A stretch of DNA of 64,000 nt, taken from Verrucomicrobiia bacterium. Its GTDB lineage: Bacteria; Verrucomicrobiota; Verrucomicrobiia; Limisphaerales; CAIMTB01. This document shows positions 6,228-53,144 of the stretch, piece after piece. The translations under genes and the position numbers were made by a program. Position 1 is the stretch's first letter. Each line of letters opens with the position of its first letter. Where the stretch lies: contig JAHCBA010000023.1 in NCBI GenBank assembly GCA_019634625.1, positions 1 to 64,000 on the forward strand, written 5' to 3'. The notes beneath the pieces are model-generated. The model worked only from the letters and a program-made list of their open reading frames with translations, made no database searches and was not told the DNA's origin.

Positions 6228-6320
6228 GTGCATCCCGTAGTCATGGGTGAGGAGGCAGCGAATCGGAGGGACGAGCTCTGCGAGTCCTCAACCCATCGCT
6301 CCACACCGTTGCGGCTTCTT
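6228..6320 (+). repeat. Family A element, leader plus first arm only
   Basis: The leader GTGCATCCCGTAGTCATGGG... (6228-6263) and the first arm (6264-6287, CGGAGGGACGAGCTCTG...) match the units at 3651 and 39170. The second arm is missing. The similarity fades after about 6315, where the rsgA-like fragment begins. This suggests a rearrangement joined the two at or near the element. Confidence 0.75.
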
Positions 6321-6334
6321 TGATGGGCACCTTT

Positions 6335-6480
6335 TGGAACGCCCGGATGCACTGCATGTCGACAACCTACCCCCCCGTCCGGCAATGGAATCAATTCGCG
6401 CCAGGTCATTGAACCAAGGGCCGACGATCGCCATGGGCGGACGGTCATGAGTTCAAATGCGTCCCCATCAGGGCGCCGAC
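6335..6480 (-). pseudogene. Fragment of an rsgA-like gene
   Basis: The DNA at 6335-6413 lines up with 5372-5450 inside rsgA. The longest shared run is AATCAATTCGCGCCAGGTC, preceded by CCCCCCGTCCGGCAA in both. Translated on the minus strand, this stretch reads TWRELIPLPDGG, against TWRELILLPDGG in the intact gene. Weaker agreement (GDAF..VRPW against GEAI..VRAW) continues to about 6480. The following DTPG motif is destroyed, with VGCRHAVHPGVPK in place of the intact G3 region. No start codon or GTPase core exists, so it is a decayed partial copy, either duplicated locally or acquired. Confidence 0.75.
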
Positions 6481-6613
6481 CCCGCCCCGATCTCCGTCCT
6501 CGACCGTCCGCAATCGGCCCGGTTCCAGACAGAGCCAGGGACATCCCACGCCGCAGACGGCCAACCTTCCCTTGCCAGATGCGTGCAGTCATCTTATGCT
6601 GAGGCCACGTTAT

Positions 6614-7672
6614 ATGAAGCGTACCTTATCACAGGCATTCTGCCGTTTCAGTCCCCACACCGGTTTCCGCCTGACCGTCGGATCGCTCGTCCTGCTGCTC
6701 GCCGTCCCGTTCGTCCAGGCCGGGCATTCCCTTGATCCCAAGGAACTTCGGGCGCGGGCCCTCGATTTCCTGGCCCCCATCCCGGACCGCATGCCGGGGG
6801 CGGAAGACGACACCCCGGCCCGGATCGAACTGGGCCGGAAGCTCTACTTCGAGACGGCGCTCTCCGAGAACCGCACCCAGTCCTGCAACACCTGCCACCG
6901 CGTGGATGAGTTCCGTGGCGGAGTGGACAATGAAGCCACCTCCCCGGGAGCGTTCGGCAAGCGGGGCGGTCGCAATTCCCCCACGGTCCTCAACGCCGGA
7001 TTCCAGTTCGTCCAGTTCTGGGACGGCCGGGCCGAGGACCTGGTGGAACAGGCCAAGGGCCCCGTTCTCAACCCCATCGAAATGGCCATGCCGAGCGAGG
7101 CGGTCGTCATCGAACGTCTGCAATCGAAGCCGCACTATGTGGAGGCGTTCGCCCAGGCCTTTCCCGGCGTCGAATCGTCCCTCTCCTACGGGAACGTCGC
7201 CCGCGCCATCGCCGCCTTCGAGCGCACCCTCGTCACGCGCGACCGCTTCGACGATTTCCTCAACGGCGACGACCAGGCCCTGACGGCGGTGGAACGGCGC
7301 GGTCTCGATGACTTCCTCACCCTGGGCTGCACGACGTGTCATTACGGGCCCGTCCTCGGCGGCCAGTCGTTCATGAAGGTCGGCCTCATCCATTCGTTCC
7401 CCACCGACGACAAGGGACGGTTCGACGTCACCCAGGAAGAGGACGACGAGTACCGTTTCAAGGTCCCCATGCTCCGGAACATCGAATTGACCCACCCCTA
7501 CTTTCACAAGGGCCAGATCGCCACGCTCGAGGAATCGGTCCGCAAGATGGGGTGGCACCAGCTCGGCCTCGAACTCTCCGAGGAGCAGGTGGGCTCGCTG
7601 GTGGCGTTCCTGCGCACCCTCACCGACAAGGAACGCCGCGCCGGAGCCCAGGCCGCCGCCGCCAGCCGGTGA
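6614..7672 (+). CDS. Dihaem cytochrome-c peroxidase (MauG/CcpA family)
   Basis: A 352-residue exported protein. The ATG at 6614 yields MKRTLSQAF... with a hydrophobic stretch LTVGSLVLLLAVPFVQAG. Two CXXCH haem-binding motifs are present: CNTCH (near residue 92) and CTTCH (near residue 239). Conserved elements GRKLYF and RNSPTVLNA surround the first haem, and MLRNIELTHPYFHKG contains the distal ligand region of the second. Periplasmic family members reduce hydrogen peroxide with electrons from cytochromes; MauG-like members modify proteins. The length fits the peroxidase group. There is no obvious partner gene nearby. Confidence 0.9.
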   Translation: MKRTLSQAFCRFSPHTGFRLTVGSLVLLLAVPFVQAGHSLDPKELRARALDFLAPIPDRMPGAEDDTPARIELGRKLYFETALSENRTQSCNTCHRVDEFRGGVDNEATSPGAFGKRGGRNSPTVLNAGFQFVQFWDGRAEDLVEQAKGPVLNPIEMAMPSEAVVIERLQSKPHYVEAFAQAFPGVESSLSYGNVARAIAAFERTLVTRDRFDDFLNGDDQALTAVERRGLDDFLTLGCTTCHYGPVLGGQSFMKVGLIHSFPTDDKGRFDVTQEEDDEYRFKVPMLRNIELTHPYFHKGQIATLEESVRKMGWHQLGLELSEEQVGSLVAFLRTLTDKERRAGAQAAAASR

Positions 7673-7688
7673 CGCATCTCCCCGGCTC

Positions 7689-7724
7689 AGAGCCTTTCTG
7701 AAAACTGGATTTCAGACAGGCTCT
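7689..7724. terminator. Inverted repeat between convergent genes
   Basis: AGAGCCT-T-TCTGAAA (7689-7703) is mirrored by TTTCAGA-C-AGGCTCT (7110-frame equivalent at 7710-7724), giving two perfect 7-bp stems with a single mismatch between them and a 6-base loop. It lies between the peroxidase stop (7672) and the stop codon of the minus-strand Hsp70 gene, whose first base it overlaps. It may end transcription from both sides. There is no U-tract on either strand, so a mobile palindrome is an alternative. Confidence 0.55.
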
Positions 7725-10567
7725 CAGGCCTCCAACCCCAGCGGCAGGGTATCGCCCAACGCCCGCGCGGCGTCCGCCCGCTCCAACTCCGCCACTTCCG
7801 CCACCAGGCGTCGCCACGACGGCGGCGCCTGGTTCGCTTCCAGCAGCGCCAGGACCCTTGCCCGGATCCCGTCGTCCACATCCCGCGCCCGGTCCCCGGT
7901 TCGCCGGGCAAGTTGCACCGCAGCAAACAAGGCCCCCTCCACCGGACGTTCGCGCCCGTCGATCAGCCGGAGGATCCATTCGACCGCGATCTCCGGCGGC
8001 ACCACCCGGTGCACGCTGCCCCTGACCGGCATTCGCGCCCCCAACCGGCCCAGCACCCAGGCCCAGGGACCTCCCGCACCCGCGGGCTCATCGAGGTGGG
8101 CCGCCACCCAACCGCCGCACTCGGCCTTCTCCTCCGCGGGCAACTGCTCGAGCGCCGCCGCCAGCCGGACCATCTCATGGAGCCCCTCGGGCTGCGGGCC
8201 CTTCGGTCGCGCCACCTGCTTGCGAACCCGTGCCGAGAGCCGGTAGGCAAGGTGCGGCTTCAACCCCGCCCAGATCTCCAACTGCCGCTCCGTGCTCAAT
8301 CCCGCCGCCAGCCGACGCCACATCACCCACCACTCGATCCAGACCGCCTTTTCGCCACCGGCCTGCACGCCTTCCGCGAACAGCCGCGCCGACTGCTCGC
8401 AACGCCACTCGTCCAGCGGATACCCGAATCCCGGCCGCAGGGCGTATCCCAGCAACTGCCAATACGTCCGCTCGTGATCCGCGCTCCGCCTCCGCCGCCC
8501 GGCCCCCGCGTGCAGCGCCCCCCACAACTCCCGAAGCGCCGGCAACCGCCACTCCGCGCGCGGTCCCAACCGCCTCTCAAGTGCGCCCCACAACGCTTTC
8601 GCCGGCACCGCTGCAGCCCCTCCGTCCCCCCTTCCGCGCCCTTTCCCTCCTGCCCCAAACACCCTGTCGATCTCTTCCCGCGCCTCTGCCAGCCGGACCG
8701 GCACCGACTCGATCGCCGTCCCTTCCTCCGGCGCCGCCCCGCTGCGCACCTCGAATTCGAGCCGCCACCGCTCGCCGCCCTCCTCCGCCACACACCACAA
8801 CTCCAGCGTCCCGATCTCCGTCAACCCAGCCTGCAAATGCACCGGCACCCGGCCCGTCCGCCCCTGCCGGCTCTCGATCAACGTGTGAATCGGCGGCAAC
8901 GACCTCAACGCCTCCCCCACCGGCACCACCGTTCCCGCCGCCTCCGCCCCTTCCGAAGTCGAGGTGAACAGCGGAAATCGTACCGGCCGCCCCAGGGTCA
9001 ACTGGAAGACCCGCTCCCCCAGGTCCACCACGGTCCCTTCCTCCTGTCCCCGCGGAATCACGCACAACGCCTCGGGCGGCCCTTCCCCCCCGGTTCCCAA
9101 TCCCACAAAAAACGCATGCGCCGTCCCGCCCCCGATTCGCGGTCCCCAACCGCGCCGCGCCAGCCCGTGCCGCACCGCTCCCCGCGCCACCGCCGCATCC
9201 AGCGAATCGTGTTCCAGCAACCGGATCGGAGGCGCCTCGGGCCACCACGAGGACACCACCTCCACCAGTCGCGCCGCCATCCGGGCCGACCGGAAGACAC
9301 CCCCGTTCAACAGGATTGCATCCGGGCGCGGCAGCGTCCCATCGGCTCTTCCCGCCCCAGCGGCCGGCTCCCCCAACGCCCGCCACCCGTCCCCGGCGTG
9401 CGCTGCCAGAAACGCCGCCAGGTGCCGCGTGATGCCGGCCTCCCGGGCATACGGCAGCCCCACTTCCCGCAACCCCATCCGCGGCCCCGGCGCCAACCCT
9501 TCCCCCGGCCGGCAATGCGGAAAGAAACCGTCCAGCAACAGCCCCTCCACCTCGTCCCGTCGGACCTCGGTCGCCAGGGTGCCTCCCACCAACCGGCTGC
9601 CCTCGCCCGCCACCGCGACCCGCTGGCTCCCGGCGGCCCCTTCCCCCAGCAACGCCTCCTTGGCCGCCCGCGAGGCCTGCACCAACTGACCCCACTGCCC
9701 CGCGCTCAACGCCCGCCCTCCGGCCGTCAACCGCGCCTCCACATGCCTTCCCAGCGCGGCGTCCATGTTGTCCCCACCCAGCATCAGGTGGTCCCCCACC
9801 GCCACCCGGCGCAGTCCCGGTTCCCCCTCTCCGACCGGCCAGGCCACCTGGACCAGCGTGAAGTCCGTCGTGCCCCCGCCCACATCCACCACCAGCACCA
9901 GGCGCACCCCCTCCAGTATCCCCGCCATCCGGCCCCGATGCCGCCCCGCGAAATGCCCGAAGGCCGCCTGCGGTTCCTCGACCAGGGTCAACCGCTCCAA
10001 CCCGGCCTGCCGCGCCGCCGCCACCGTCAGCGCCCGCGCCGCCTCGTCGAACGACGCCGGCACGGTCAGTACCACATCCTGCCGCCCCAACGGCGCCTCC
10101 GGATGCGCCGCCTCCCAGCCCGCCCCCAGGTGACCCAGCAACCGCGCCGAAGCCTCCACCGGCGAGAGCTTCGAAACGTCCGCCGCCGCCCCCCACGGCA
10201 GAATCGCCGCCGTCCGGTCCACCGCCGGATGACACAACCAGCTCTTGGCCGACGCCACCAGCCGTCCAGGCACCCGTGTCCCCTGCCACCGCGCCAACTC
10301 CCCGATCACCTCCCGCCGCGGATTGCCCCAAGGCAGACGGATCGACTCATCCGGCAGTTCCGGCCCGGCGGGCAGGTACAGGCACGACGGCAGCAACCCC
10401 CGCTCCGCCACCTCCCCCGGACCGACCAGTTGCGGAATGGCGAAGTCCTCGACCCGCGCCGCCTCCCCGGCCCCGAGAACGGCAAACGCCATCGCGCAGT
10501 TCGTGGTGCCCAGGTCGATCCCAACCACGAACCGCGCCCCATCCGTTGCCGCGGTCCGGCCGCTCAC
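7724..10567 (-). CDS. Hsp70-family protein with C-terminal DUF3731 region
   Basis: A 947-residue protein. Residues about 12-600 form an Hsp70-type ATPase: phosphate loop GIDLGTTNCA, then VVLTVPASFDEAAR and LVEEPQAAFGHF, then VDVGGGTTDFTLV, then NGGVFRSARM. About 330 further residues, rich in Arg, Trp and Ala, match what is known as DUF3731, a domain found attached to such Hsp70s. The canonical Hsp70 substrate-binding domain is replaced by a short beta region. The GTG start at 10567 overlaps the stop of the upstream Hsp70 gene by four bases (GTGA), indicating translational coupling. It is the last gene of a three-gene cassette. Substrate and partner proteins are unknown. Confidence 0.88.
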   Translation of the reverse strand: MSGRTAATDGARFVVGIDLGTTNCAMAFAVLGAGEAARVEDFAIPQLVGPGEVAERGLLPSCLYLPAGPELPDESIRLPWGNPRREVIGELARWQGTRVPGRLVASAKSWLCHPAVDRTAAILPWGAAADVSKLSPVEASARLLGHLGAGWEAAHPEAPLGRQDVVLTVPASFDEAARALTVAAARQAGLERLTLVEEPQAAFGHFAGRHRGRMAGILEGVRLVLVVDVGGGTTDFTLVQVAWPVGEGEPGLRRVAVGDHLMLGGDNMDAALGRHVEARLTAGGRALSAGQWGQLVQASRAAKEALLGEGAAGSQRVAVAGEGSRLVGGTLATEVRRDEVEGLLLDGFFPHCRPGEGLAPGPRMGLREVGLPYAREAGITRHLAAFLAAHAGDGWRALGEPAAGAGRADGTLPRPDAILLNGGVFRSARMAARLVEVVSSWWPEAPPIRLLEHDSLDAAVARGAVRHGLARRGWGPRIGGGTAHAFFVGLGTGGEGPPEALCVIPRGQEEGTVVDLGERVFQLTLGRPVRFPLFTSTSEGAEAAGTVVPVGEALRSLPPIHTLIESRQGRTGRVPVHLQAGLTEIGTLELWCVAEEGGERWRLEFEVRSGAAPEEGTAIESVPVRLAEAREEIDRVFGAGGKGRGRGDGGAAAVPAKALWGALERRLGPRAEWRLPALRELWGALHAGAGRRRRSADHERTYWQLLGYALRPGFGYPLDEWRCEQSARLFAEGVQAGGEKAVWIEWWVMWRRLAAGLSTERQLEIWAGLKPHLAYRLSARVRKQVARPKGPQPEGLHEMVRLAAALEQLPAEEKAECGGWVAAHLDEPAGAGGPWAWVLGRLGARMPVRGSVHRVVPPEIAVEWILRLIDGRERPVEGALFAAVQLARRTGDRARDVDDGIRARVLALLEANQAPPSWRRLVAEVAELERADAARALGDTLPLGLEA

Positions 10568-39720: not shown

Positions 39721-40005
39721 TCCCGTCCCTCGACTCGCAAACCCACCGCCCCGACCATTCCCAATCGGGATTTTCCGCTTGGCGCGACCCCGGGGATTCG
39801 ATTAACCAGAGTCACGATTTCCCCAAACGGATCTACTGGCCCAGTCTCCTTCCCTCCACGGACCATGGCCCCTTTGGCCATCCGTGCGGGATGCCTTGGA
39901 ACGTCGGGTCTCCAGGGAAATCGCCCTACCCTCCGCATAGCAACCCAACCAATCCTCTCCACCAATCCCATGCAAATCCCCTCCCACAAACCGCCCGGAT
40001 CGACC

Positions 40006-43000
40006 ATGGATCCGTGCCGACCGAAGACCACGGCGCGATCCGTGGTCGCCTCGGTCGTCACCGGCATCCTGGCCCTCGCCACCCTGCTCGTCCCAGTCCG
40101 GGCCGGCACCCTCACCGCCAATTTCTCCAGTGACCCGGGCGGAACGCCCCTCGGCCGCGCCAAGATCGACAACGGCATCCTCAAGCTCCAGGACCTCCAG
40201 GAACTCATCGACGGAGAGGCCAGCCTCCCGATGCACGGCTCCTACGTCTTCCCCGAGATCGATGGCGGCGCCAAGGTCGCCTCCTTCGTCGCCACCTTCC
40301 GCGCCAGCATCCATGGCGGCACCGAACAGGGCGCCCAGGGCTTCAGCTTTGTCCTGGCCAACGACATCGAGGATCGCACCTCCCCCTTCCGCGAAAGCGG
40401 CGGCGGCAGCCAGGGCCTCGTCATCTCCTTCGATACCATCGACAACCTCGCCGGATTCGAAGCGGAAGGGAACCAGCTCGGCGACGCCCCCGGCATCATC
40501 ATCCGCATCGGAAATCAACGCGTCGCCGCCCAGCGCTTCAACGGCCTCCGCACCGGCTCCCCCAACAACCAGACCCCCACCTTCGTCCCCGTCGAAATCC
40601 GCCTCGATCCCGATGGCACCCTCGATGTGACCTACAACGGGGTGAAGGTGTACGACAACTTCCCCATCCCCTATGCCCCCATCGCCGGAAACTTCGGCTT
40701 CGGCGCCGGCACCGCCGAGCTGACCGCCGCCCTCCGCGACAACCACTGGATCGACGACCTCTCCATCACCACCACCACCGTCAGCGGGGCCCACGTGCTC
40801 TCCGCCCTGCCCCTCGGCGCCACCGTCCGCCCCGATGCCCGGGTCGAAATCCAGCTCCAGGACCTCGCCGGCGCCTCCGTCGCCCTTCAGTTCAACGGCG
40901 CCACCGTCCAGCCCACCGTCGCCACCGCCGGTGCCGTGACCACGGTCACCTACGATCCCCCCGGCACCCTCGCCCCAGGCTCAACCCACGAAGTCCAGCT
41001 CACCTACGGCGACAAAACCCTCCGGTACGCCTTCACCGTGGTCAGCGCCCCCGTGATCCCCGCCGCCTTCGCCGTCCCCGCCGCCACCGTCGCCACCGCC
41101 CAGAGCGGCTTTACCGTCCGCGTTCACCAGCTCGAATCCGCACCCCCGGGCGGCAATACCGCCGACCGCGTCGAACGTCAGCTCGCCGGCGAATACGGCG
41201 AGAATATCGCCGACATCTCCCTCGGCGTCGGGGACGGCAGCTTCCTCGTGGACGTCATCAACTTCGAGCAGGACGGCTTCGACGCCGGCCTCGTCAATAG
41301 TGCCACCGGCCACCCCGACGATTTCATCCCCGGCATCCCCGGGCTCCTGGGCACCTACGACTACATCGCCATGGAGATCATCGGTTACCTCGATCTCGCT
41401 CCCGGCGCCTACACCTTCGGAGCCGTCAGCGATGACAACTTCCGCCTGACGATCGGCGACAATCCCCGCGACGTCACCGCCCTCCGCCTCCTCGATACCC
41501 CCATCGGCACCGTCCGCGGCACCTTCATCATCGAACAGGCCGGCATCTACCCCGTCCGCGGTCTCTGGGGAGAAGGCGTCGGCGGCGCCCACATCGAGTT
41601 CTGGCTCGAAACGCCCACCGGCGAAATCATCCTCATCAACGACCGATCCACCCCCGGTCACGTCCGCTCCTATCGCGCCCGCGCCGCCGGTTACCAGGCC
41701 GCCCCCTACCTCAGCGCGGCCAGCCCCGCCCCCGGCGAGGCCAACGTCAGCACGGCCCCCACCGTCCGGCTCCAACTCACCGAGACCGGCCCCACGGTCA
41801 ACGCCGCTTCCATTCAGGTCGCCCTCAACGGCCAGACCCTCACCCTCCCCGAGGGTGCCGTCTCCAAACAGGGCGCCGTGACCACCATCGAGTTCCGCCC
41901 GGCCACGGCCCTCGAACCGCTCGCCGACCAGACGCTGCGCCTCTCCCTCACCGACAGCGCCGGAACCCCGGTCATCCGTGAGTACACCTTCACCACCGGC
42001 AGGGCCGCCGCCGGCAACCTCGCCAACGCCGTCAAGGGCTACTGGAACTTCTCCCAGGGGAATCTCGCCGCCGTCATTGGCCGCGACCTCCAGTACATCG
42101 ACGCCTCCCTCGCCAGCCGTTACGCCTTCGGCACCACCGCCGCCCTCGGCATTCCCGCCATCGACGGTCAACCCGCCCGCGTCCTCCACATCCCCTACAC
42201 CCCGGGCGAACCCCGCGAGGTCTTCAGCAAAATCGGCCTCCGCATGCAGCACACCATCACCCCCAACGGCGGCGGCCAGAAGGTCAACCAGTGGACCCTC
42301 ATCATGGATGTCCTCTGGGGCCCCGAAGGTCAGGGCTTCGGCGGTCTCCTCCAGACCCACGACTTCGACAACCCCACCGACGGTGACCTCTTCTGGCGCG
42401 CCAGCGACGGCTCCTACGGCAAGGGCTGCTGCTCCATCTACGACGGACTCCCGGCCGAGCGCTCCCATCGCCAGGGCGAATGGGCCCGTGTCGTCTTCGT
42501 CGTCGATCTCACCGCCAACCCCCCGCGCCTCGCCAAATTCATCAACGGCTACAAACACCGCGAAGACCTCACCGGCGACGGCGGCACCCTCGACGGACGC
42601 TACGGTCTGCCCCCAGAGGTCTTCCTCTTCGGCGACGGCGACGACAACGAACGCACCGAGGCCTTCGTCAATGCCATCCAGATCCGCGAAGGCATCATGA
42701 GCGACGAGGAGGTCGCGGCCCTCGGGGGCGCCTCCGCCAACGGCATCCCGATCCCCTATGCCCAGTGGGACTTCGAAGCCGGCAACCTCGCCGCCACCGT
42801 CGGCAACGACCTCGAATACATCGACTCGTCCCTCGCCAATCGCTACGCCTTCGGCACCACCACCGCCCTCGGCATCCCCGACATCGCCGGCCGTCCCGCC
42901 CGCGTCATCCACATCCCCTACACCCCGGGCGAACCCCGCGACGTCTTCAGCAAGATCGGCCTCCGCATGCACCATGGCCTCGGCGCCAACGCCGGCGGTC

Positions 43001-44439
43001 AGAAACTCAATCAGTGGACCCTCGTCATGGATGTCCTCTGGGGTCCCGAAGGTCAGGGCTTCGGCGGTCTCCTCCAGACCCACGACTTCGACAACCCCAC
43101 CGACGGCGACCTCTTCTGGCGCGCCAGCGACGGCTCCTACGGCAAGGGCTGCTGCTCCATCTACGACGGACTCCCCGCCGAACGCTCCCATCGCCAGGGC
43201 GAATGGGCCCGCGTCGTCTTCGTCGCCGACCTCACCGCCAATCCCCCCCGCCTCGCCAAGTTCATCAACGGGTACAAACACCGCGAGGATCTCACCGGCG
43301 ACGGCGGGACCTTCGACGGACGCTACGGCCTGCCCTCCCAGGTCTTCCTCTTCGGCGACGGCGACGACAACGAACGCACCGAGGCCTTCGTCAATTCGAT
43401 CCAGATCCAGGCCCGCGCCCTCTCCGATGACGAAGTCATCGCCCTTGGCGGCCCCAGCGCCTCCGGCATCCCCACGCCCAACCCGGTCAAGGGCGAATGG
43501 AACTTCGACCAGGGCAACCTCGCCGCCACCGTCGGCCGCGACCTGCGCTACATCGACAACGCCCTCGCCAGCCGCTACGCCTTCGGCACCACCACCGCGC
43601 TCGGCATCCCCAACATCAACGGCATGCCCGCCCGCGTGATCCACATCCCCTACACCCCGGGCGAACCCCGCGAGGTCTTCAGCAGGATCGGCCTCCGCAT
43701 GGAACATCTCGTTCCCCCCAACGGCGGCGGTCAGAAGGCCAACCAGTGGACCCTCATCCTCGATCTCCTCTGGGGTCCCGAAGGTCAGGGCTTCGGCGGT
43801 CTCCTCCAGACCCATGACTTCGACAACCCCACCGACGGCGACCTCTTCTGGCGCGCCAGCGACGGTTCCTACGGCAAGGGCTGCTGCTCGATCTACGACG
43901 GCCTCCCAGCCGAACGCTCCCATCGCCAGGGCGAATGGGCCCGCGTCGTCTTCGTCGCCGACATCGCCGCCAACCCGCCCCGCCTCGCCAAGTTCATCAA
44001 CGGGTACAAGCACCGCGAGGACGTCACCGGCGACGGCGGCACCCTCGACGGACGTTACGGACTGCCTCCGGAGATCTTCCTCTTCGGCGACGGCGACGAC
44101 AACGAACGCACCGAGGCCTTCGTCAATGCCATCCAGATCCGCGAAGGCGCCCTGACCGACGACGAGGTGGCCATCCTCGGCGGACCTTCCGCCTTCGGAA
44201 TCCCCTCCGCCGCCTCGGGCAGCGGTGGCGGCAGCACCCCGCCCCCGCCCACCGCCCCGGAAATCGCCCTCACGGTCAACGCCAACGGCACCCTGACCCT
44301 CACCTGGACCGGCAACGGCTTCACCCTCGAATCCACCGGCGCCCTCGGCGGCACCTGGACCCCCGTCGCCGGCGTCACCGGCACCTCGGCCACCCTCACC
44401 CCCACCGGGGCCGGCCAGTTCTACCGGCTCCGACAGTAA
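40006..44439 (+). CDS. Secreted lectin/PA14-like/LamG-repeat protein
   Basis: A 1477-residue exoprotein. Signal peptide residues about 10-35 (VVASVVTGILALATLLVPVR). An L-type-lectin-like domain (about 34-258) contains GAQGFSFVLAND and FDTIDNLAGFE. A PA14-like module (360-562) has YLDLAPGAYTFGAVSDDNF. A Big_5-type Ig domain (565-665) follows, then three tandem LamG-like jelly-roll repeats of 241-244 residues, each with GFGGLLQTHDFDNPTDGD and YGKGCCSIYDGLPAERSHR. The C-terminus is a short beta module ending QFYRLRQ, a feature shared by exoproteins of this lineage. The ATG at 40006 (alternative 39970) gives the best signal peptide. It is followed by a strong terminator. Binding partners are unknown. 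Confidence 0.88.
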   Translation: MDPCRPKTTARSVVASVVTGILALATLLVPVRAGTLTANFSSDPGGTPLGRAKIDNGILKLQDLQELIDGEASLPMHGSYVFPEIDGGAKVASFVATFRASIHGGTEQGAQGFSFVLANDIEDRTSPFRESGGGSQGLVISFDTIDNLAGFEAEGNQLGDAPGIIIRIGNQRVAAQRFNGLRTGSPNNQTPTFVPVEIRLDPDGTLDVTYNGVKVYDNFPIPYAPIAGNFGFGAGTAELTAALRDNHWIDDLSITTTTVSGAHVLSALPLGATVRPDARVEIQLQDLAGASVALQFNGATVQPTVATAGAVTTVTYDPPGTLAPGSTHEVQLTYGDKTLRYAFTVVSAPVIPAAFAVPAATVATAQSGFTVRVHQLESAPPGGNTADRVERQLAGEYGENIADISLGVGDGSFLVDVINFEQDGFDAGLVNSATGHPDDFIPGIPGLLGTYDYIAMEIIGYLDLAPGAYTFGAVSDDNFRLTIGDNPRDVTALRLLDTPIGTVRGTFIIEQAGIYPVRGLWGEGVGGAHIEFWLETPTGEIILINDRSTPGHVRSYRARAAGYQAAPYLSAASPAPGEANVSTAPTVRLQLTETGPTVNAASIQVALNGQTLTLPEGAVSKQGAVTTIEFRPATALEPLADQTLRLSLTDSAGTPVIREYTFTTGRAAAGNLANAVKGYWNFSQGNLAAVIGRDLQYIDASLASRYAFGTTAALGIPAIDGQPARVLHIPYTPGEPREVFSKIGLRMQHTITPNGGGQKVNQWTLIMDVLWGPEGQGFGGLLQTHDFDNPTDGDLFWRASDGSYGKGCCSIYDGLPAERSHRQGEWARVVFVVDLTANPPRLAKFINGYKHREDLTGDGGTLDGRYGLPPEVFLFGDGDDNERTEAFVNAIQIREGIMSDEEVAALGGASANGIPIPYAQWDFEAGNLAATVGNDLEYIDSSLANRYAFGTTTALGIPDIAGRPARVIHIPYTPGEPRDVFSKIGLRMHHGLGANAGGQKLNQWTLVMDVLWGPEGQGFGGLLQTHDFDNPTDGDLFWRASDGSYGKGCCSIYDGLPAERSHRQGEWARVVFVADLTANPPRLAKFINGYKHREDLTGDGGTFDGRYGLPSQVFLFGDGDDNERTEAFVNSIQIQARALSDDEVIALGGPSASGIPTPNPVKGEWNFDQGNLAATVGRDLRYIDNALASRYAFGTTTALGIPNINGMPARVIHIPYTPGEPREVFSRIGLRMEHLVPPNGGGQKANQWTLILDLLWGPEGQGFGGLLQTHDFDNPTDGDLFWRASDGSYGKGCCSIYDGLPAERSHRQGEWARVVFVADIAANPPRLAKFINGYKHREDVTGDGGTLDGRYGLPPEIFLFGDGDDNERTEAFVNAIQIREGALTDDEVAILGGPSAFGIPSAASGSGGGSTPPPPTAPEIALTVNANGTLTLTWTGNGFTLESTGALGGTWTPVAGVTGTSATLTPTGAGQFYRLRQ
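42031..44190 (+). repeat. Three near-identical coding repeats in the LamG region
   Basis: Equivalent Trp codons that open each unit lie at 42043, 42766 and 43498, so the periods are 723 and 732 bases, both in frame. Long blocks are almost unchanged at the DNA level, for example GACTTCGACAACCCCACCGA in all three. Such identity suggests recent duplication or gene conversion. The Cys pair in GKGCCSIYDG is kept in all copies. Confidence 0.9.
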
Positions 44440-45113: not shown

Positions 45114-48095
45114 TCATGCCTTCGGATGCGCCCAGATGCGGCCGAACTTCCCATCATTCCGCGGCCGGAGGCCGCCCCAGGCCGGGTCCTTCCTCTTGAA
45201 CTCCTCGCGCAGAAAACGGATCAGCTTCAAGTCCTCTTCCACCAGTTTGCCAAAGCCCAGGCTGCCTGTGCTCCCGAACATCTCCGGCTGGGTTGCTTCC
45301 AGTGCGCCCTTTCGATCCAGCAGAAGACGCCTGGAGTGGTCCGGGATGGCGGCGGCGACTTCCTTGATGACCCCCCGTTGTCGGGAGACCTCCGCGGCCA
45401 GATTCCTGGCGTCCTGCGGTTCAATCAGGCCGCCGGCGGCTGTCACCAGCCCTCCGATGGCGCCCGCACCGCCAGCAGTCAGAGCCAGCGTGGCCCAACT
45501 GCCCCACGTGAGCGCCCGGCGCACGCCTTGCAGCCACTCGCCCGGGAGTGTGATCGTCTCGCTGCCCTTGAAGCCCCTGCCCTCGTCCTTCTGATCCTTC
45601 AGTTCCCTGAACAGAGGAACCGGCCTTCGGCTCGCCTCGCACCAGACAGTCATGCGGAACGTCATGTGCGTCCACCTTTCCAGGTTCGGCCTCCACCAGA
45701 CTTCTCCCTTCTCACCCGGTACGGGAATCACGCTGAAGAGCCGCGGACCGTCTTTCCATTCGCTGGTGAAGGCGTCCAGGATGCCGTCCCCCTGCATCTG
45801 GATGACCTCCCTCAAGCTGGCAATATCCTCCCGCGTGGCAGCGCCTTCCTCGCGAATGACGGCAGCCAGGTTCGCTTCCATCTCGGCCACTCGCGTGGTC
45901 AACGCTTCCAGGACGGGCGGCACGACGGCGCGCAGACTGAGCAACTCCCGGATCGAGACGTACTTCTTGCACGTTTCGCAGCGGACAGACCGGTTGCCGG
46001 CACGGTCCGCTTCCGCGCAGTCCTCCATTGAAATCAGCCCTGAATCTGGTTTGCCCACCGCGCAAACCCGCCCACACGGCACAAACTCCACTTTCTCCAG
46101 GCCCAGCCCGCTCCAGTACCCATCGCCACGAACGCCGATGCGGTGGACGATGGAGTGCATCAACCCGTCTCCCAGCCGATGACGGACGGTGATGCGTAGC
46201 AGGGGACCATCGAGTTCGATCTTCCCGGCGCTTCCGTAGTCGTCCGTGACCAGCAGGCCGCGCTGCCAGTGCAGCGCCTTGTTGTAGTCGGCCCGGCCCA
46301 GCGAGAACTCCCGCAGCCGGAAAATGAGCAGGTAGATGATGTCCGGCACTTCCTCGTAGCCGATGCTGCCAACCTTGCGAAACGCGATGACTCGCACCGC
46401 CTCGGCTCCGTTCGGAGGGCTGATGTCCGTCCAGGTCGTGTCCACGTCGTGCCTGGGCCTGTCCTCGACCATCTGGGTCACCAGAAGCTGATGCCCCTGG
46501 CCAGTCTTCGCGCCTGCCATCCGGGGGCGATAAGCCAGTTCGTTGATCTCCATGAGTTCGATCAACGCCTCGTACGTGTCCGGTTCGTAACCCGGGGTGT
46601 TGTCGCGTCCTGGCCCACGCCACACACGTTCCAGCTTGAGGATGTCCACCAGGCCGTGGGCCAGCCGGGTGTGCTCGTCGTCCACCAGCCGCGCCACGGC
46701 CCGGCACAGCCAGTCGGGATTCAGGATCACCACGTCTTCGCCAGCGGGAATATCCTCACGCCAAAGCAGGGCGCCAATGTAGTGGCCGGTGCGGATGACT
46801 TGTCGCTGTTCCTGTGCCTCCCCGATCCCGTGCCGCGCGCAGATGTCGCTGATCTGCCGCCAGCGCAGAAAGGCGACGCCCGAGTTCGACAGTTCGTCCA
46901 GCACCTTCGCCCAGCCGGGGAGCCAGGTGTGGGTGCACTTGCTGCGCTTTTCCTGCGCCACCGTGGCCAGCAGTACGCGCATCTCCGGAATGCCCGTCCC
47001 ATCCCTGCTGTCCACGGCCACCATGGCCCGGATCATCTCGCCGTGTCTGGATTGCAGTTCTTGCAGGGTCAGGGCCTTGTCCGGCTGGCAGTCCTTATCG
47101 TTGCAGCGGGTCGAAACCACGATCACCGTGGCGTCGCCGCCCGTCCGGCGCCCGACCAGCTCGATCCATTCGTGGAGCTTTTGAACGCTGGCGCCCTGGC
47201 GCGGCATGGTCACCACCAGGTACAGCGCCGACGGCGTGAAAAACATCTGGTGCGTATGCTGGTAGTGCTCCTGCCCGCCCATGTCCCAGAGCGTGAGGTC
47301 GATCACGTCCATACGCGGCCCGGACTTCCTCGCACGTTCCGCGAGAGTCACGAAATCCCCGGTCAGGCCAAGATGCAGGCGTTCCCGGCTCATGCCGTCC
47401 GTGCTTTCCCCCCCTGCCTGGAACGGTTCGCCCCGTAGCGCGCGTTGCAGACAGGTCTTGCCGTTCTCCTGCGGTCCCACCAGCACCACCTTGCCCACAC
47501 ACTGGGTCACGGAGACTTCTTCCGCTGCGCGTCCCAGGTGTTCTCGAAGGGACTTCCATCCCTCCTCCTTCCACACCGCGCGAAGGTCCGGAGCCAGCGA
47601 CTTCTCATCGAGACCGACGTGTTCCAAGGCCTCCAGCCGGGCCATCGCCGCCGGCAGACTGGCTGTCTCGCAGCCGGTGATGTCCAGTTCCACCAACGAC
47701 CTCAGATCGCCGATGCGGTCCGGCAGTTTCGTCAGTGCGTTCCCGCGCAGGTAAAGCCTTTGGAGGTTCGTCAGGTTCCCGATGGATCCCGGCAACGTCT
47801 CGATCCGGTTGAAATTCAGCCCCAGCCAGACCAGGCCGGTGAAGCCGGTCACACACTCCGGCAGCTCGGTGAGCCGGTTTCCCGTCAGGTCCAGGTAGCG
47901 GAGGTGCGGCAGGCTCGCCAGGCTGATGCCTGCCAGGTCGCGCTCGGGTACCTCGAACGGGGCGGAAAGATCCGCGTCGGTCAAATCGAGGCCGGCGAGG
48001 TTGAGATGGTCGTGCCGCTGGACAAGTTCGCCGTTCTCGACCGCAAGACAGTCGGCGATGATGCGCTGGAAGGGCTTGAGTTCTGAGCCGCTCAT
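45114..48095 (-). CDS. Roco-family protein: LRR - Roc GTPase - COR
   Basis: A 993-residue protein. Leucine-rich repeats occupy residues about 60-165 (LPHLRYLDLTGNRLTELPE and similar 23-residue steps). The Roc GTPase follows: P-loop GPQENGKT (207-214), switch II DMGGQE (271-276), and TRCND (329-333) in place of NKxD. The COR region spans about 400-640. A Cys cluster (CGRVC..., CETC) near 660-700 may bind zinc. Near 850-880 a hydrophobic stretch (ATLALTAGGAGAIGGLVTAAGG) could be a membrane segment. Roco proteins are dimeric nucleotide-driven switches. The ATG at 48095 overlaps the stop of the small gene upstream by four bases, so its translation is coupled to that gene. Signalling output is unknown. 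Confidence 0.9.
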   Translation of the reverse strand: MSGSELKPFQRIIADCLAVENGELVQRHDHLNLAGLDLTDADLSAPFEVPERDLAGISLASLPHLRYLDLTGNRLTELPECVTGFTGLVWLGLNFNRIETLPGSIGNLTNLQRLYLRGNALTKLPDRIGDLRSLVELDITGCETASLPAAMARLEALEHVGLDEKSLAPDLRAVWKEEGWKSLREHLGRAAEEVSVTQCVGKVVLVGPQENGKTCLQRALRGEPFQAGGESTDGMSRERLHLGLTGDFVTLAERARKSGPRMDVIDLTLWDMGGQEHYQHTHQMFFTPSALYLVVTMPRQGASVQKLHEWIELVGRRTGGDATVIVVSTRCNDKDCQPDKALTLQELQSRHGEMIRAMVAVDSRDGTGIPEMRVLLATVAQEKRSKCTHTWLPGWAKVLDELSNSGVAFLRWRQISDICARHGIGEAQEQRQVIRTGHYIGALLWREDIPAGEDVVILNPDWLCRAVARLVDDEHTRLAHGLVDILKLERVWRGPGRDNTPGYEPDTYEALIELMEINELAYRPRMAGAKTGQGHQLLVTQMVEDRPRHDVDTTWTDISPPNGAEAVRVIAFRKVGSIGYEEVPDIIYLLIFRLREFSLGRADYNKALHWQRGLLVTDDYGSAGKIELDGPLLRITVRHRLGDGLMHSIVHRIGVRGDGYWSGLGLEKVEFVPCGRVCAVGKPDSGLISMEDCAEADRAGNRSVRCETCKKYVSIRELLSLRAVVPPVLEALTTRVAEMEANLAAVIREEGAATREDIASLREVIQMQGDGILDAFTSEWKDGPRLFSVIPVPGEKGEVWWRPNLERWTHMTFRMTVWCEASRRPVPLFRELKDQKDEGRGFKGSETITLPGEWLQGVRRALTWGSWATLALTAGGAGAIGGLVTAAGGLIEPQDARNLAAEVSRQRGVIKEVAAAIPDHSRRLLLDRKGALEATQPEMFGSTGSLGFGKLVEEDLKLIRFLREEFKRKDPAWGGLRPRNDGKFGRIWAHPKA

Positions 48096-48316
48096 GATGG
48101 AGCAATTCCAACTTTCGCTGTCCCGCCTCCAGGGAACGGGCCCGTGACGGAGGGACCGTCCAGATACTCCACACAGAAGGCCCAGGAACCTTCCTTGCCC
48201 GCTTCACACCCCTGCCGGGTCACCCGCACCACCCGGTGCGACCGCACAAAGGGGTTCAAGGGCGCGGCCACTTCCGGGCTGGCGTCGGCCGGCACTTGAA
48301 AGAACGCAAAGGCCAT
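48092..48316 (-). CDS. Shortened retroelement-accessory-like protein
   Basis: A 74-residue protein, MAFAFFQVPADASPEVAAPL..., with LNPFVRSHRVV and WAFCVEYLDG. This N-terminal pattern (F..VP..., LN.FLR.HRV, W.FCVEYLDG) is, from memory, that of small accessory proteins encoded beside reverse transcriptases of diversity-generating retroelements; full-length members continue with an HRDC domain. Here the frame stops after GGGTAKVGIAPS, so the HRDC half is missing. The stop overlaps the Roco start (ATGA), and the FGE-like gene ends 20 bases before. It may be a remnant or a domesticated N-domain. The family assignment is unverified. Confidence 0.7.
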   Translation of the reverse strand: MAFAFFQVPADASPEVAAPLNPFVRSHRVVRVTRQGCEAGKEGSWAFCVEYLDGPSVTGPFPGGGTAKVGIAPS

Positions 48317-48336: not shown

Positions 48337-49065
48337 CTACGCGGCGGAAGCCCGGCCTCCGGCCTCGATCCGGACTGGATTGCCGGTGGAACTGGGGCAG
48401 GGCCGGAAGCCGATGGCACGGTTGCGGTTGATTGGGGCGCTGCCGAAGCGGAAGGCGGATCGCGTGTATCTGCAGTCGAAGAACCAAGAGCCGCCGCGAA
48501 GCACGCGGGCCCCGCCCTCATAGACATCCTCACACCACTCCCAGAGCTGGCCGTGCATGTCGTGCAGACCCCAGGCATTCGGTGGGAAGCTGCCTTCTGT
48601 AATCGTGCGCTCCCGATAAAGCCACTGGAAGGCTTCGCGTCCGCTGCCGCAGGGATGGTTGCCGTCGAAATTCGCCATCTGGCTGTTCAAGCATCGGCCG
48701 GAACCGATGCCGAAGGGCGTGATCGTGCCTGCCCGACAGGCGTATTCCCACCCGGCTTCCGTCGGCAGGCGCAAGCCGGTCTTTTGGCAGAACTCCTGGG
48801 CGTCGTTCCACGAGACTCTGTCCACGGGATGCAGGTCCCTTTTCCCGCGCCGGCCGGGGTTCTCACCCATGACGGCCAGCCATTGCTGCTGGTTGACGGG
48901 ATATTGCGCCAGCCAGAATCCCTCGGAGAACGTCCAGGCGCGCTGTTCTTCATTGGCACCGCGCTCCGGTTCATCCGGCGGACTGCCCATGACGAACGGC
49001 TTGCCGGGCGGTGTGGGCGGGCACCAGCAGAGGACCATCGACACGGGCGGATTGCCCACCCTCAT
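48337..49065 (-). CDS. FGE-sulfatase/SUMF1-domain protein, likely retroelement variable protein
   Basis: A 242-residue protein with a formylglycine-generating-enzyme (C-type-lectin) fold: PFVMGSPPDEPERGANEEQ, FWLAQYPVNQQQW, PVDRVSWNDAQEFCQKTG, LRLPTEAGWEYACRAG, LHDMHGQLWEWCEDVY and RVLRGGSW. The C-terminus, RSAFRFGSAPINRNRAIGFR, is where diversity-generating retroelements place their variable region. It probably lacks sulfatase-activating function and serves as a ligand-binding scaffold. The start is uncertain; ATG 49065 has GGAG four bases before it, while 49155 is an alternative. It is the first gene of a three-gene run with the accessory-like and Roco genes. A 240-base stretch upstream (49092-49331) has no gene. 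Confidence 0.82.
   Translation of the reverse strand: MRVGNPPVSMVLCWCPPTPPGKPFVMGSPPDEPERGANEEQRAWTFSEGFWLAQYPVNQQQWLAVMGENPGRRGKRDLHPVDRVSWNDAQEFCQKTGLRLPTEAGWEYACRAGTITPFGIGSGRCLNSQMANFDGNHPCGSGREAFQWLYRERTITEGSFPPNAWGLHDMHGQLWEWCEDVYEGGARVLRGGSWFFDCRYTRSAFRFGSAPINRNRAIGFRPCPSSTGNPVRIEAGGRASAA
48394..48507 (-). other. Candidate variable region at the 3' end of the FGE-like gene
   Basis: Between RVLRGGSW (48507-48484) and IGFRPC (48414-48397), 23 codons (48483-48415) carry mostly NNC codons, such as TTC, TTC, GAC, TGC, TAC, TTC, GGC, AGC, ATC, AAC. These are the products expected when AAC codons of a template repeat are changed at adenines. The flanking anchors match those of known variable proteins. 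Wobble C is frequent throughout this genome, so codon use alone is weak support. No template repeat was found in the window. Confidence 0.6.
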
Positions 49066-49331
49066 CACGCTCCGCTGGCCGGGGAACTCGCCGGTAAGGC
49101 CGGGCCGCCACTCAACAGCTCTCACAAGACTGCGAGCCCGTGCGGGAGGGTGCATGTCGCGGAGCGTACACACGCCCACCACAGGGTCCAGCCCCGCACG
49201 GTGCATGGCCGGGAAATCGACCGCCCGGCAGACCGAGACGCTCCCAACAACCATGGGGCGGACCGGCTCGCGCCAATCCGCCCCATGCGTCAATCCCCAC
49301 CGGCCTTCACGCGGAAGGCCGAGCAGCGGGC

Positions 49332-52300
49332 TCAATCCCGCCTGGACCGCAGGTATCGCGCCGCGTCGGTCGTGGGCACAACCATCGGACTTTGCGATTC
49401 CTGGGCGATCACCTGCCACGGTCCCTGCACCGTCGCGGCCGCCTCCAACGCCCCGGTCCACACCACCCGCAGACCGCCGGCTTCCCGGCTGATCTGAATC
49501 TCAGGTTGTTCGACACCCGGCGTCAGCAGCGTGCCCGCCCGGTAGGCGCGGATCGCCAACGGATTGGTTGTGTCGTTGAGCAGGTGCAGCCCCCGGTCCC
49601 GCACGGAGAACAGCTCAAGAATCGCACCGGGCTCCTGCCGCCGGTACCGGTGGAACCACAGGACCCGGATCGGATAATACCCGGCCTCGGGGGCGACCAC
49701 GTCGAAGAACTGATTCCGACCGAAGTAGGTGGGAACCCGCGTCGGATCTTCCGAGTTGTCGAACAGGCTCAGCACCGGCCCGGTCGCGCTCAGCCCCGCC
49801 GTCGCCTTGTGCCCGCTCTCGCTGTACAGCCCCAGCTTGTGACTGCCTGCGGACAGTTCGAGATAGGTCAGGATCTCAATGACCCGGCCCTCCGCCGTGG
49901 TGGCGTACTGGTGCGGGAACGGATCGTCGTCCGGGAAGTTCAGACTCGCCGAATCACCCGGCGCCAGTTCGTACCAGTTGATCACCCCCTCGACGACGGT
50001 CGGATCGCCCTTCCACGGGCCTTCCCATTCGAGATTGGCCTCGTTGTAGTACGGACTCCCGCCCTCCGGGGCCAGTTCGCCCCGCAACTGTCGCTCCGCC
50101 AGCTCCGCCACGCCGCCATGCACCTCGCGGGCCCCGTCCGCTGTCTGGTCCGACGAGATCTGTGTGACATACACCACGAACCCGCCATGGGCCGTGTTGA
50201 CGGTGCTCAACCGCCCGGCCGCTGGCAGGACCGTGTACGGCCCGACAAGGAACACAAAGTCGCGCGACTGCACCTCCCCGCCGACCGACGCCGTCAGTCG
50301 CAACGTATGGGTGCTGTTGGCTGGAAGCAGCGTCCCGTGGACGCCCGTGACCCGCGTCAATCCACCCGTCTTGGTCGCCTCCGAGGTGACAGCCGTGCCG
50401 TTCAGCGCCACCTGGACCGATGCCGGATCGAGTTGCCGGGCCCCTTCGTCCTCGAGCCGGATGCTGAATCCGTAGGCGTCCCCTTCGAACACGGTCGCCA
50501 GGTCGATGCCCGAGGCCCCGCCTTCACTGAGGGTCAGTTCCGCCGACTCCATCCAGTCCACCTTCCATCCTTCGGAAGCGCCCTCCTGGAAGGCTGACAC
50601 CGCAATCGTCTGGCCCAGGGAGAGGCCCAGCGCCGCCAGCGGGAGACGCACTTCCATGGTGTCACCGCTATGTTCCACCTCGAACCCGCTCAGGATGACG
50701 GTGTCCTCATCGAGCGGGTCATACACCTGGCGCCCGTCGAAATTCCCGTTGCGCCATCCCACCATCACCACCCGCTCGGTGCCCACGGGCCGGCTCACGC
50801 CGGTCGCGTTGCCTTCATACTCGGCATTGCTCCGGCCCGTCGCCGGATTGTTGTCGGTGTCGAGCAGCCAGTGATAGTAGTGCCGGTTCACCATCCCTTC
50901 GGCCGTGTCCTCCACCGCCGGCAGAATCGTCCCGTACACCGTCATCCGCAGCACCAGCTGCCCGCCCGCCAGGGTCGCCTCGATCCTCTTCAGGTCGCCG
51001 TTGGCATCTCCCATGTCCTCCGGATCCTCCACCACCGCCACCGGGGCCATCGACGCCTCGTCGGAGGTGAGCGTCAGTTCCGCCGATTCGATCCAATCCA
51101 CCGCCCACCCGTCCGATGCCCCCTCCTGGAACGCCGAGACGGACACCGTCTGCCCAAGCGCCACGCCCAGCGCCTCGAGTGGAATCACAGCGGTCAGGGT
51201 GTTGCCGGCCGCATGGTACCGGAACCCGGTCAGAATCGCGGTGCTCTCGTCCAGCGGATCGTACACCTCGATCCCGTTCGGCTTCCCGTCCCTCCAGCCG
51301 ATCATCACCACCCGTTCGGTGCCGACCGGTCGGGAGACCCCCGTCGCATTCCCCTCGTACTCCGCGTTGCTGCGTCCCGTGGCGGGGTTGTTGTCGGTGT
51401 CGATCAGCCAGTGATAGTAATAGCGGTTCGACATCCCTTCGGCGGTGTTCGCCGTGGACGGCGCCGCCACGCCATCCACCGTCATCGACAGGTGCAGCTC
51501 ACCACCCGCCACATGGGCTGTGATGCCCCGGATGTCCCCGCTCGGGTCCGCCATGTCCTTCGGATCCGCCACCGCCGCCACCGGGATGTCCGGGCCGTCG
51601 ATCGTCCACTCCACGGATTCCGCCCAGTCCACCGCCCATCCGTCTGAAGCGCCCTCCTGAAATGCGGACAGCGACACGGTCTGGCCCCGCACCACCCCGA
51701 GCGCCGACATCGGCACCACCGCCACCAGCGAATTGCCGCCCACCTGGAACGGGAACCCCGTCAGAATCGCCGTGTCCTCATCCAACGGATCGTACACCTC
51801 GATCCCGTTCGGACGCCCGTCGCGCCACCCGATCATGATCACCCGCTCGGATCCGATGGCCCGCGTCACCCCGGTGGCATTCCCCTCATACTCGGCGTTG
51901 CTCCGCCCCGTCGCCGGGTTGTTGTCGGTGTCGAGCAGCCAGTGATAGTAGTAACGGTTCGATTTCTCGGCCGGCGTGTTTTCGACCGACGGCGCCGCGA
52001 CGCCGTGAACGCTCATCCACAGGACCACCCGGTCCCCCTGGGCGTACGCCGCGATGCTGCGGATGTCCCCGCTCGGGTCCCCCAGGTCCGCCGGATCCCC
52101 CACCCTCGCCACCGTGCCCGGCGGCCCGTCCGCAGTCAGCACCACGGATTCCGTCCAGTCCACCGCCCAACCGTCCGACGCGCCCTCCTGGAACGCCGCC
52201 AGACCGAACGTCTGTCCCCGCACCAGCCCCAGCGCCGAAAGCGGGACCACTGCCGTCAGACTGTTGCCGCTCGCCAGGAACGGAAAGTCCGCGAGGATCG

Positions 52301-52718
52301 TCGTGCCCTCGTCCAGCGGATCATACACCTCGACGCCATTCGGCCGGCCGTCCCGCCATCCGATCATCACCACCCGCTCCGCGCCGATCGGCTGCGTCAC
52401 GCCCGTCGCGTTTCCCTCATACTCCGCGTTGCTCCGCCCCGTCGCCGGGTTGTTGTCCGTGTCCAGGAGCCAGTGGTAGTAATAGCGGTTCGACATCCCT
52501 TCCGGGGTCTGCCCGACCGACGGCGCCGCCACGCCGTCCACGGTCATGCTGAGGAAGAGCACGTCTCCCCGCACCCGGGCCCCGATGCTGCGGATGTCCC
52601 CGCTGCTGTCGGCCATGTCCTTCGGATCGGTCACCAGCACCTCGCCGCCTGTCGCGCCCGAGGCATTCGCCCCGGCCAGACCCACCGCAAGGGCCATTCC
52701 CAACAGCCATCGACGCAT
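49332..52718 (-). CDS. Secreted protein with four tandem repeats and a PA14-like C-terminal module
   Basis: A 1128-residue exoprotein with signal peptide MRRWLLGMALAVGLAGANA. Four repeats of about 177-180 residues follow (about 25-740), each with NRYYYHWLLDTDNNPATGRS, AEYEGNATGV, YDPLDE and AFQEGASDGWAVDW. Each repeat looks like a beta-sandwich with Asp-rich DTDNN loops that may bind calcium. A linker beta domain is followed by a PA14-like module (about 860-1080: ERQLRGELAPEGG, TYLELSAGSHKLGLYSESGHK), related to that of the lectin/LamG protein at 40006. The ATG at 52718 gives the best signal peptide; ATG 52775 with a GGAG site is an alternative. Function unknown, probably adhesion or polysaccharide binding. 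Confidence 0.85.
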   Translation of the reverse strand: MRRWLLGMALAVGLAGANASGATGGEVLVTDPKDMADSSGDIRSIGARVRGDVLFLSMTVDGVAAPSVGQTPEGMSNRYYYHWLLDTDNNPATGRSNAEYEGNATGVTQPIGAERVVMIGWRDGRPNGVEVYDPLDEGTTILADFPFLASGNSLTAVVPLSALGLVRGQTFGLAAFQEGASDGWAVDWTESVVLTADGPPGTVARVGDPADLGDPSGDIRSIAAYAQGDRVVLWMSVHGVAAPSVENTPAEKSNRYYYHWLLDTDNNPATGRSNAEYEGNATGVTRAIGSERVIMIGWRDGRPNGIEVYDPLDEDTAILTGFPFQVGGNSLVAVVPMSALGVVRGQTVSLSAFQEGASDGWAVDWAESVEWTIDGPDIPVAAVADPKDMADPSGDIRGITAHVAGGELHLSMTVDGVAAPSTANTAEGMSNRYYYHWLIDTDNNPATGRSNAEYEGNATGVSRPVGTERVVMIGWRDGKPNGIEVYDPLDESTAILTGFRYHAAGNTLTAVIPLEALGVALGQTVSVSAFQEGASDGWAVDWIESAELTLTSDEASMAPVAVVEDPEDMGDANGDLKRIEATLAGGQLVLRMTVYGTILPAVEDTAEGMVNRHYYHWLLDTDNNPATGRSNAEYEGNATGVSRPVGTERVVMVGWRNGNFDGRQVYDPLDEDTVILSGFEVEHSGDTMEVRLPLAALGLSLGQTIAVSAFQEGASEGWKVDWMESAELTLSEGGASGIDLATVFEGDAYGFSIRLEDEGARQLDPASVQVALNGTAVTSEATKTGGLTRVTGVHGTLLPANSTHTLRLTASVGGEVQSRDFVFLVGPYTVLPAAGRLSTVNTAHGGFVVYVTQISSDQTADGAREVHGGVAELAERQLRGELAPEGGSPYYNEANLEWEGPWKGDPTVVEGVINWYELAPGDSASLNFPDDDPFPHQYATTAEGRVIEILTYLELSAGSHKLGLYSESGHKATAGLSATGPVLSLFDNSEDPTRVPTYFGRNQFFDVVAPEAGYYPIRVLWFHRYRRQEPGAILELFSVRDRGLHLLNDTTNPLAIRAYRAGTLLTPGVEQPEIQISREAGGLRVVWTGALEAAATVQGPWQVIAQESQSPMVVPTTDAARYLRSRRD

Positions 52719-53144
52719 GCCTGCCCCTGCGCCATCCCCATCCCGGCCTTCCTGGTATTCTGTGTATAGTCTCATATCGGATGCTCCATCCCGCGCGGAC
52801 CACGCGCATGGTCATTCACCGCAATTGTAATCGAGTCACAGGTCCGCCCGAGGTGTTGCGAGGCTAGGAATGCACCCCCTCGCGTCAAGGACTGATTGGT
52901 GCGGACGACCGTCCCCGGAACCGCCGCAACCGCTGGGTGACGATTCATCGATTGGGAGGGTCGATCGTCTCGAACGGCCCGGCCCATGGCCGGCCCATTC
53001 CCGGGCGTCGCACACCTTCAACCTCCGTCTCGTCGCCGCACCCGCCCACCATCCCGTCGGGGGCATGATCGAATCGTCCTAGCCGGCGATTCGCTCGTTC
53101 TAGCCCGCCACACCCCGACATGCTCCCATCCCCACGCTCCTCCC
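52719..53144. other. Divergent intergenic region
   Basis: This 426-base gap separates the four-repeat exoprotein gene (minus) from the pilin-like gene (plus), so promoters for both must lie here. It is less GC-rich near 52755-52840 (TATTCTGTGTATAGTCTCAT). No inverted repeat, small gene or clear sigma-factor site could be picked out by eye. Confidence 0.5.

Follow-up and report, generated by a model that had tools for sequence, protein, structure and literature searches.

The FGE-like gene near the centre of this report is very probably a former target of a diversity-generating retroelement (DGR) of the HRDC type. It lies in a contig of a Verrucomicrobiia bacterium, in the stretch of 64,000 nucleotides that was analysed as a whole and is called the window here. 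Comparison with related loci suggests that a deletion took the HRDC part of the accessory gene together with the reverse transcriptase (RT) gene and the template repeat (TR), leaving the variable region (VR) of the target frozen, and that the target gene has been kept together with a gene for a Roco protein. Three genes run in one direction on the minus strand, namely the FGE/C-type-lectin gene, a 74-aa open reading frame (ORF) and the gene for the 993-aa Roco protein. The features of the locus, followed by the arrangement in its closest fully intact relative, are these:

48337..49155, minus strand: gene for an FGE-like/C-type-lectin protein of the variable type (272 aa; Pfam PF03781, 6.5e-38)
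48403..48507, minus strand: VR, from RVLRGGSW to IGFR, with the variable core codons at about 48412-48483 (gapless alignment to the TRs of intact relatives)
48092..48316, minus strand: truncated DGR accessory gene (74 aa), with the N-terminal domain only (model positions 2-60 of ~150) and the HRDC domain missing (alignment and profile)
48092..48095, minus strand: ATGA in which the accessory stop overlaps the Roco start (window sequence)
45114..48095, minus strand: gene for the Roco protein, partner of the FGE gene (993 aa; LRR, Roc GTPase, COR-A and COR-B by Pfam)
L041, the locus with the G190 order: FGE 7133-7900, accessory 7950-8402, RT from 8399, TR 9400-9513, Roco match from 9736

The reading frame, the FGE fold and the anchors RVLRGGSW and IGFRPC lie where an earlier note, made from the letters of the window alone, had placed them. 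The C-type-lectin/FGE fold is recognised by the PF03781 profile, and at the C-terminal end of the protein fixed anchors flank the VR, a layout that comparison establishes as that of a DGR target protein. Its sequence matches in the PDB are SUMF1, SUMF2 and the variable protein 1 of Treponema denticola (2y3c, 1e-11), which is itself a DGR target. The gene probably starts at 49155 rather than at 49065, which is an internal ATG, because the extra 30 N-terminal codons (AVEWRPGLTGEFPGQ...) align with relatives. GGS[YF]xCxxxxC is the active-site motif of FGE and, with its two cysteine positions taken as the reference, the alignment with SUMF1 puts F and T of the window protein at the two active-site cysteine places, so that the product does not have the residues of a catalytic FGE. 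When compared with the related gene of genome G713, the body of the gene has a dN/dS of 0.18, with silent sites near saturation, and on this measure it is under purifying selection. Large ORFs flank the locus at 39865-44439 (plus strand) and 49332-52775 (minus strand), and these contain long internal repeats of ~200-260 aa, in three and four copies respectively, whose function was not recognised.

The closest fully intact relative belongs to G190, a genome of the same class, where the order is FGE, HRDC accessory, RT, TR and Roco. The TR and VR of this locus have 16 mismatches, all of which fall at adenines of the TR. In 15 TR/VR pairs from related loci, mismatches fall at 207 of the 398 A of the TRs, none of 467 C, one of 400 G and none of 175 T, a base count that illustrates adenine-specific change and does not prove it, the pairs having been picked for an A fraction above 0.75. 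Set against G190, the window has lost the HRDC half, the RT and the TR that stood between the accessory and Roco genes, and the contig is continuous there. At the level of sequence, then, the comparison establishes both the DGR history of the gene and the local loss of the machinery. The earlier note's reading of the product as a DGR-type variable protein is accordingly borne out by relatives of both the gene and its neighbour, which are DGR targets with an RT, an HRDC accessory and a TR, and by a VR in which differences between species are far more frequent at the columns of TR adenines than at the others.

The adenine sites marked by the TR of G190 provide a yardstick that is independent of the window. 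Between the window and G713, 16 of the 26 TR-adenine sites differ versus 14 of the 79 other sites (p=4.6e-5), and for G558 the corresponding counts are 19 of 26 and 26 of 79 (p=3.7e-4); a further between-species test with the same TR gave p=0.0064. When six loci are taken together (the window, G713, G558, L187, L192 and G190), there are 3.0 distinct bases per TR-adenine site and 1.9 elsewhere (p=3e-7). At the level of protein, the window and G713 share 73% identity in the body, whereas only 5 of 17 residues agree at the TR-adenine codons. Within the VR core the same two genes have a pN of 0.37 and a pS of 0.28, as against 0.16 and 0.54 in the gene body, and this excess of replacements with reduced silent divergence fits TR-templated rewriting, by which silent bases are reset from the template.

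The predominance of NNC codons, which had been offered earlier as a sign of a DGR, is weak as a sole argument and was set aside in that form, since C ends 42% of body codons; a test by TR column was used in its place, and there the sign holds. The G190 TR has AAC at nine columns, where the window codons end in C in nine cases out of nine (~4e-4 at a background of 0.42), and over the six divergent loci 52 of 54 such codons end in C, the frequency in gene bodies being ~0.34-0.42, with free variation at the first and second bases. These tests of the VR pattern involve small counts and related sequences, with a contribution from codon bias, and it is the combined pattern that could hardly be accounted for without a DGR history.

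The machinery itself was sought throughout the genome. No RT was found by RVT_1 or by a profile built from seven DGR RTs of relatives, and no RT remnant was found in the 64-kb window. A blastn search for a TR as a near-copy of the VR returned only short chance matches and FGE paralogues. The G-G-x-W-N pattern occurs at 52 places, compared with 25 in a control, and none of the places that were read, namely all but ~20 of the 52 and two of these ~20, has a TR-like, asparagine-rich context. With 97% completeness in 88 contigs, the assembly makes the absence of RT and TR strong although not absolute. An active DGR in cis is ruled out, as the window has no RT, no TR and no whole accessory gene of either the Avd or the HRDC kind. 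The proposal that the cell makes a hypervariable protein now is thus wrong or at least unsupported. The earlier note had held that its reading would fail if the genome contained no template and the VR codons were strictly conserved across strains: no near-copy differing only at adenines was found in this assembly, and the VR codons are not conserved across relatives. The genome also contains three more FGE genes with DGR-type VRs, one on contig 24 (L040, 3632) and two on the reverse strand of contig 26 (L037, 7064 and 8358). They share their fixed, non-adenine bases almost perfectly, third positions included, their differences lie at AAC-type columns and no RT was found for them; to judge from these sequences, a single DGR of another type, either lost or unassembled, would seem to have had all of them as targets.

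The short ORF downstream is recognised through its relatives. Accessory relatives in the phylum have 150-205 aa, with the same N-terminal domain followed by an HRDC domain (PF00570, 3e-19), and an RT adjoins the accessory relative in 12 of 13 other genomes of the phylum, the thirteenth being a weak match with an in-frame stop. Within the order such relatives occur in 21 of 320 genomes, mostly with an RT ~200-500 bases downstream, whilst no accessory match was found in the plasmid collection. The N-terminal domain of ~60 aa (48092-48316; L041-L056, L103, L109-L130) is conserved among HRDC-type accessory proteins and has no Pfam match, and would thus appear to be undescribed as far as the libraries used go. 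The accessory relative stands without an RT at L110, L111, L112, L117 and L128, and with an RT fragment only at L116 and L127. Decayed DGR loci are seen in several forms in the same order: the accessory gene continues in frame into an RT tail at L127 (7056-7814) and into a 1665-aa ORF at L111 (5363-10360), and the RT is absent or fragmentary at L116, L110, L117 and L128. The accessory remnants of G713 and G558 are cut at residues 37-40 and continue into filler, the window remnant being cut at ~60. After the cut this filler (L139 ~7030-7200; L112, reversed, ~6300-6720) is repeat-like and partly palindromic, and may be a trace of the process that produced the deletions.

The partner gene encodes a Roco protein, with a Roc GTPase followed by COR (PF08477, PF16095 and PF25497, all over the cut-off). 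Compared with G713, its dN/dS is 0.19, with silent sites near saturation, which places it likewise under purifying selection by sequence comparison. The pairing with the FGE gene is established by orthologues that adjoin a VR-type FGE gene or its DGR in G713 (68%), G558 (57%), L187, L192 and G190. Five DGR-less FGE-Roco pairs were found (window, G713, G558, L187 and L192), and in L187 and L192 the pair is kept with no accessory gene. A search of the genome contigs for Roco returned nothing with a single-protein query and seven with an alignment query; the gene was not found in four genomes of the same genus. In the Roco tree G190 stands outside a group of the window, G713, L187 and G558, and the placement of L192 is unsure owing to long branches. 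That the Roco gene simply inserted into a DGR can be ruled out, since G190 already has this gene downstream of its TR and other genomes carry orthologous pairs. PADLOC gave no match for the FGE or the Roco protein, and no effector domain was recognised in the latter. Upstream of another Roco relative, FGE-like stretches that are out of frame (L190, ~230-1990) are perhaps a broken FGE gene.

Other readings of the locus have to be weighed against a frozen former target. That the gene is an ordinary member of the FGE-sulfatase family, with a C-terminal loop that varies by normal evolution and that was never a DGR target, is very improbable. All of the family shares the anchors RVLRGGSW...GFR, and its members are plentiful in the order (72 of 146 genomes), but normal evolution does not account for variation that tracks TR adenines and spares third bases, nor for the accessory remnant directly downstream, the intact homologous DGR locus of G190, or the F and T at the catalytic cysteine places. 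Somewhat less improbable, though still unlikely, is that the window target is diversified in trans by an RT and a TR in sequence that is absent from the assembly. Some 3% of the genome is missing and an RT-TR cassette could sit in a gap between the 88 contigs; moreover, the genomes G454 and G484 of the same genus carry RTs with TRs, and the at least three other DGR-type VRs on contigs 26 and 24 leave room for an RT that was active until recently or is unassembled. However, an assembly gap would need to hide RT and TR alike, the other VRs are of a different type with no blastn match to the window VR, and the cognate TR of G190 sits between RT and Roco, in precisely the interval that is gone here on a continuous contig.

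A further alternative concerns only the accessory remnant, which might be a working small protein that links the FGE protein with Roco rather than a relic. Its intact ORF and ATGA overlap with the Roco gene would suit such a role, as would a dN/dS of 0.19 versus G713 over its first 35 codons, but only ~27 silent sites underlie this value, and the loss may have come after much of the divergence. Since the ORF breaks early and runs into filler in G713 and G558, and since the pair persists in L187 and L192 with no accessory at all, a working protein is unlikely.

The preferred reading, that of a former target frozen by deletion, can be set out as a sequence of events. In the ancestors, as homology and the substitution pattern suggest, the RT would have copied the TR between the RT and Roco genes with its adenines randomised, and the mutated copy would have homed into the 3' end of the FGE gene. 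A deletion in this genome is then likely to have eliminated the RT gene and the TR along with the HRDC-encoding half of the accessory gene, so that Roco came to abut the accessory remnant and the VR would have been frozen. The mutator was probably lost more than once, as the differing cut points and the VR silent bases, which are less diverged than those of the body, suggest losses that were partly independent and later than the splits. The FGE protein has probably been kept as a fixed ligand-binding sensor, with the Roco GTPase as its switch, in a putative conflict (immune-like) system, a role proposed because the gene pair is conserved and under purifying selection and because FGE-NTPase systems have been published. 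What remains of the receptor or adhesin of the earlier note is the narrower proposal of a putative receptor with a Roco GTPase as its partner. Tentatively, FGE and Roco might form a two-gene receptor module that sheds its hypermutation machinery time and again after a useful VR has been found, the diversified receptor thereby being fixed in the genome.

The loss of a DGR appears here to be caught at stages: in one locus the DGR is intact, in others its accessory gene is truncated, and in yet others nothing of it remains, the receptor-GTPase pair being constant throughout. Such staged loci make it testable whether hypermutated bacterial receptors become locked in and kept for function. They also tie HRDC-type DGRs to Roco GTPases, and they call for caution, as FGE genes with DGR-type ends may be invariant today.

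HRDC-type DGRs, systems of DGR, FGS or FGE and GTPase, and DGR remnants are each already known, whereas no description was found in the open literature of a DGR-less FGE-Roco unit with half an accessory gene beside an intact form from the same taxonomic class. An HRDC accessory gene has already been described for the DGR of T. denticola (PMC4891356; TvpA structure 2y3c), in which target genes of isolates without RT and TR are believed to be remnants. That system shares with the present one an FGE/C-type-lectin target and an HRDC accessory gene that, in intact relatives, overlaps the RT; its targets include putative lipoproteins, whereas the window target is paired with Roco and its accessory gene is halved by deletion. 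DGR-diversified antigen sensors have been described in Thiohalocapsa PB-PSB1 by Dore et al. (PMC10907252), where an FGE/CLec variable domain likewise adjoins a signalling NTPase and a sensor role is proposed, although those are NACHT, nSTAND1 or MoxR systems with active DGRs and the text is without HRDC, Roco or GTPase. Kaur et al. 2021 (PMC8195603) have described FGS domains with NTPases, including AP-GTPases (Roc), and with DGRs, as conflict systems. As here, FGS (PF03781) is combined with an NTPase or Roc-type GTPase, often with a DGR, but those systems are mainly fusions with effector-associated domains and have a four-helix Avd accessory, whereas in the window FGE and LRR-Roco are encoded by two neighbouring genes, the accessory is of the HRDC type and the DGR has been lost.
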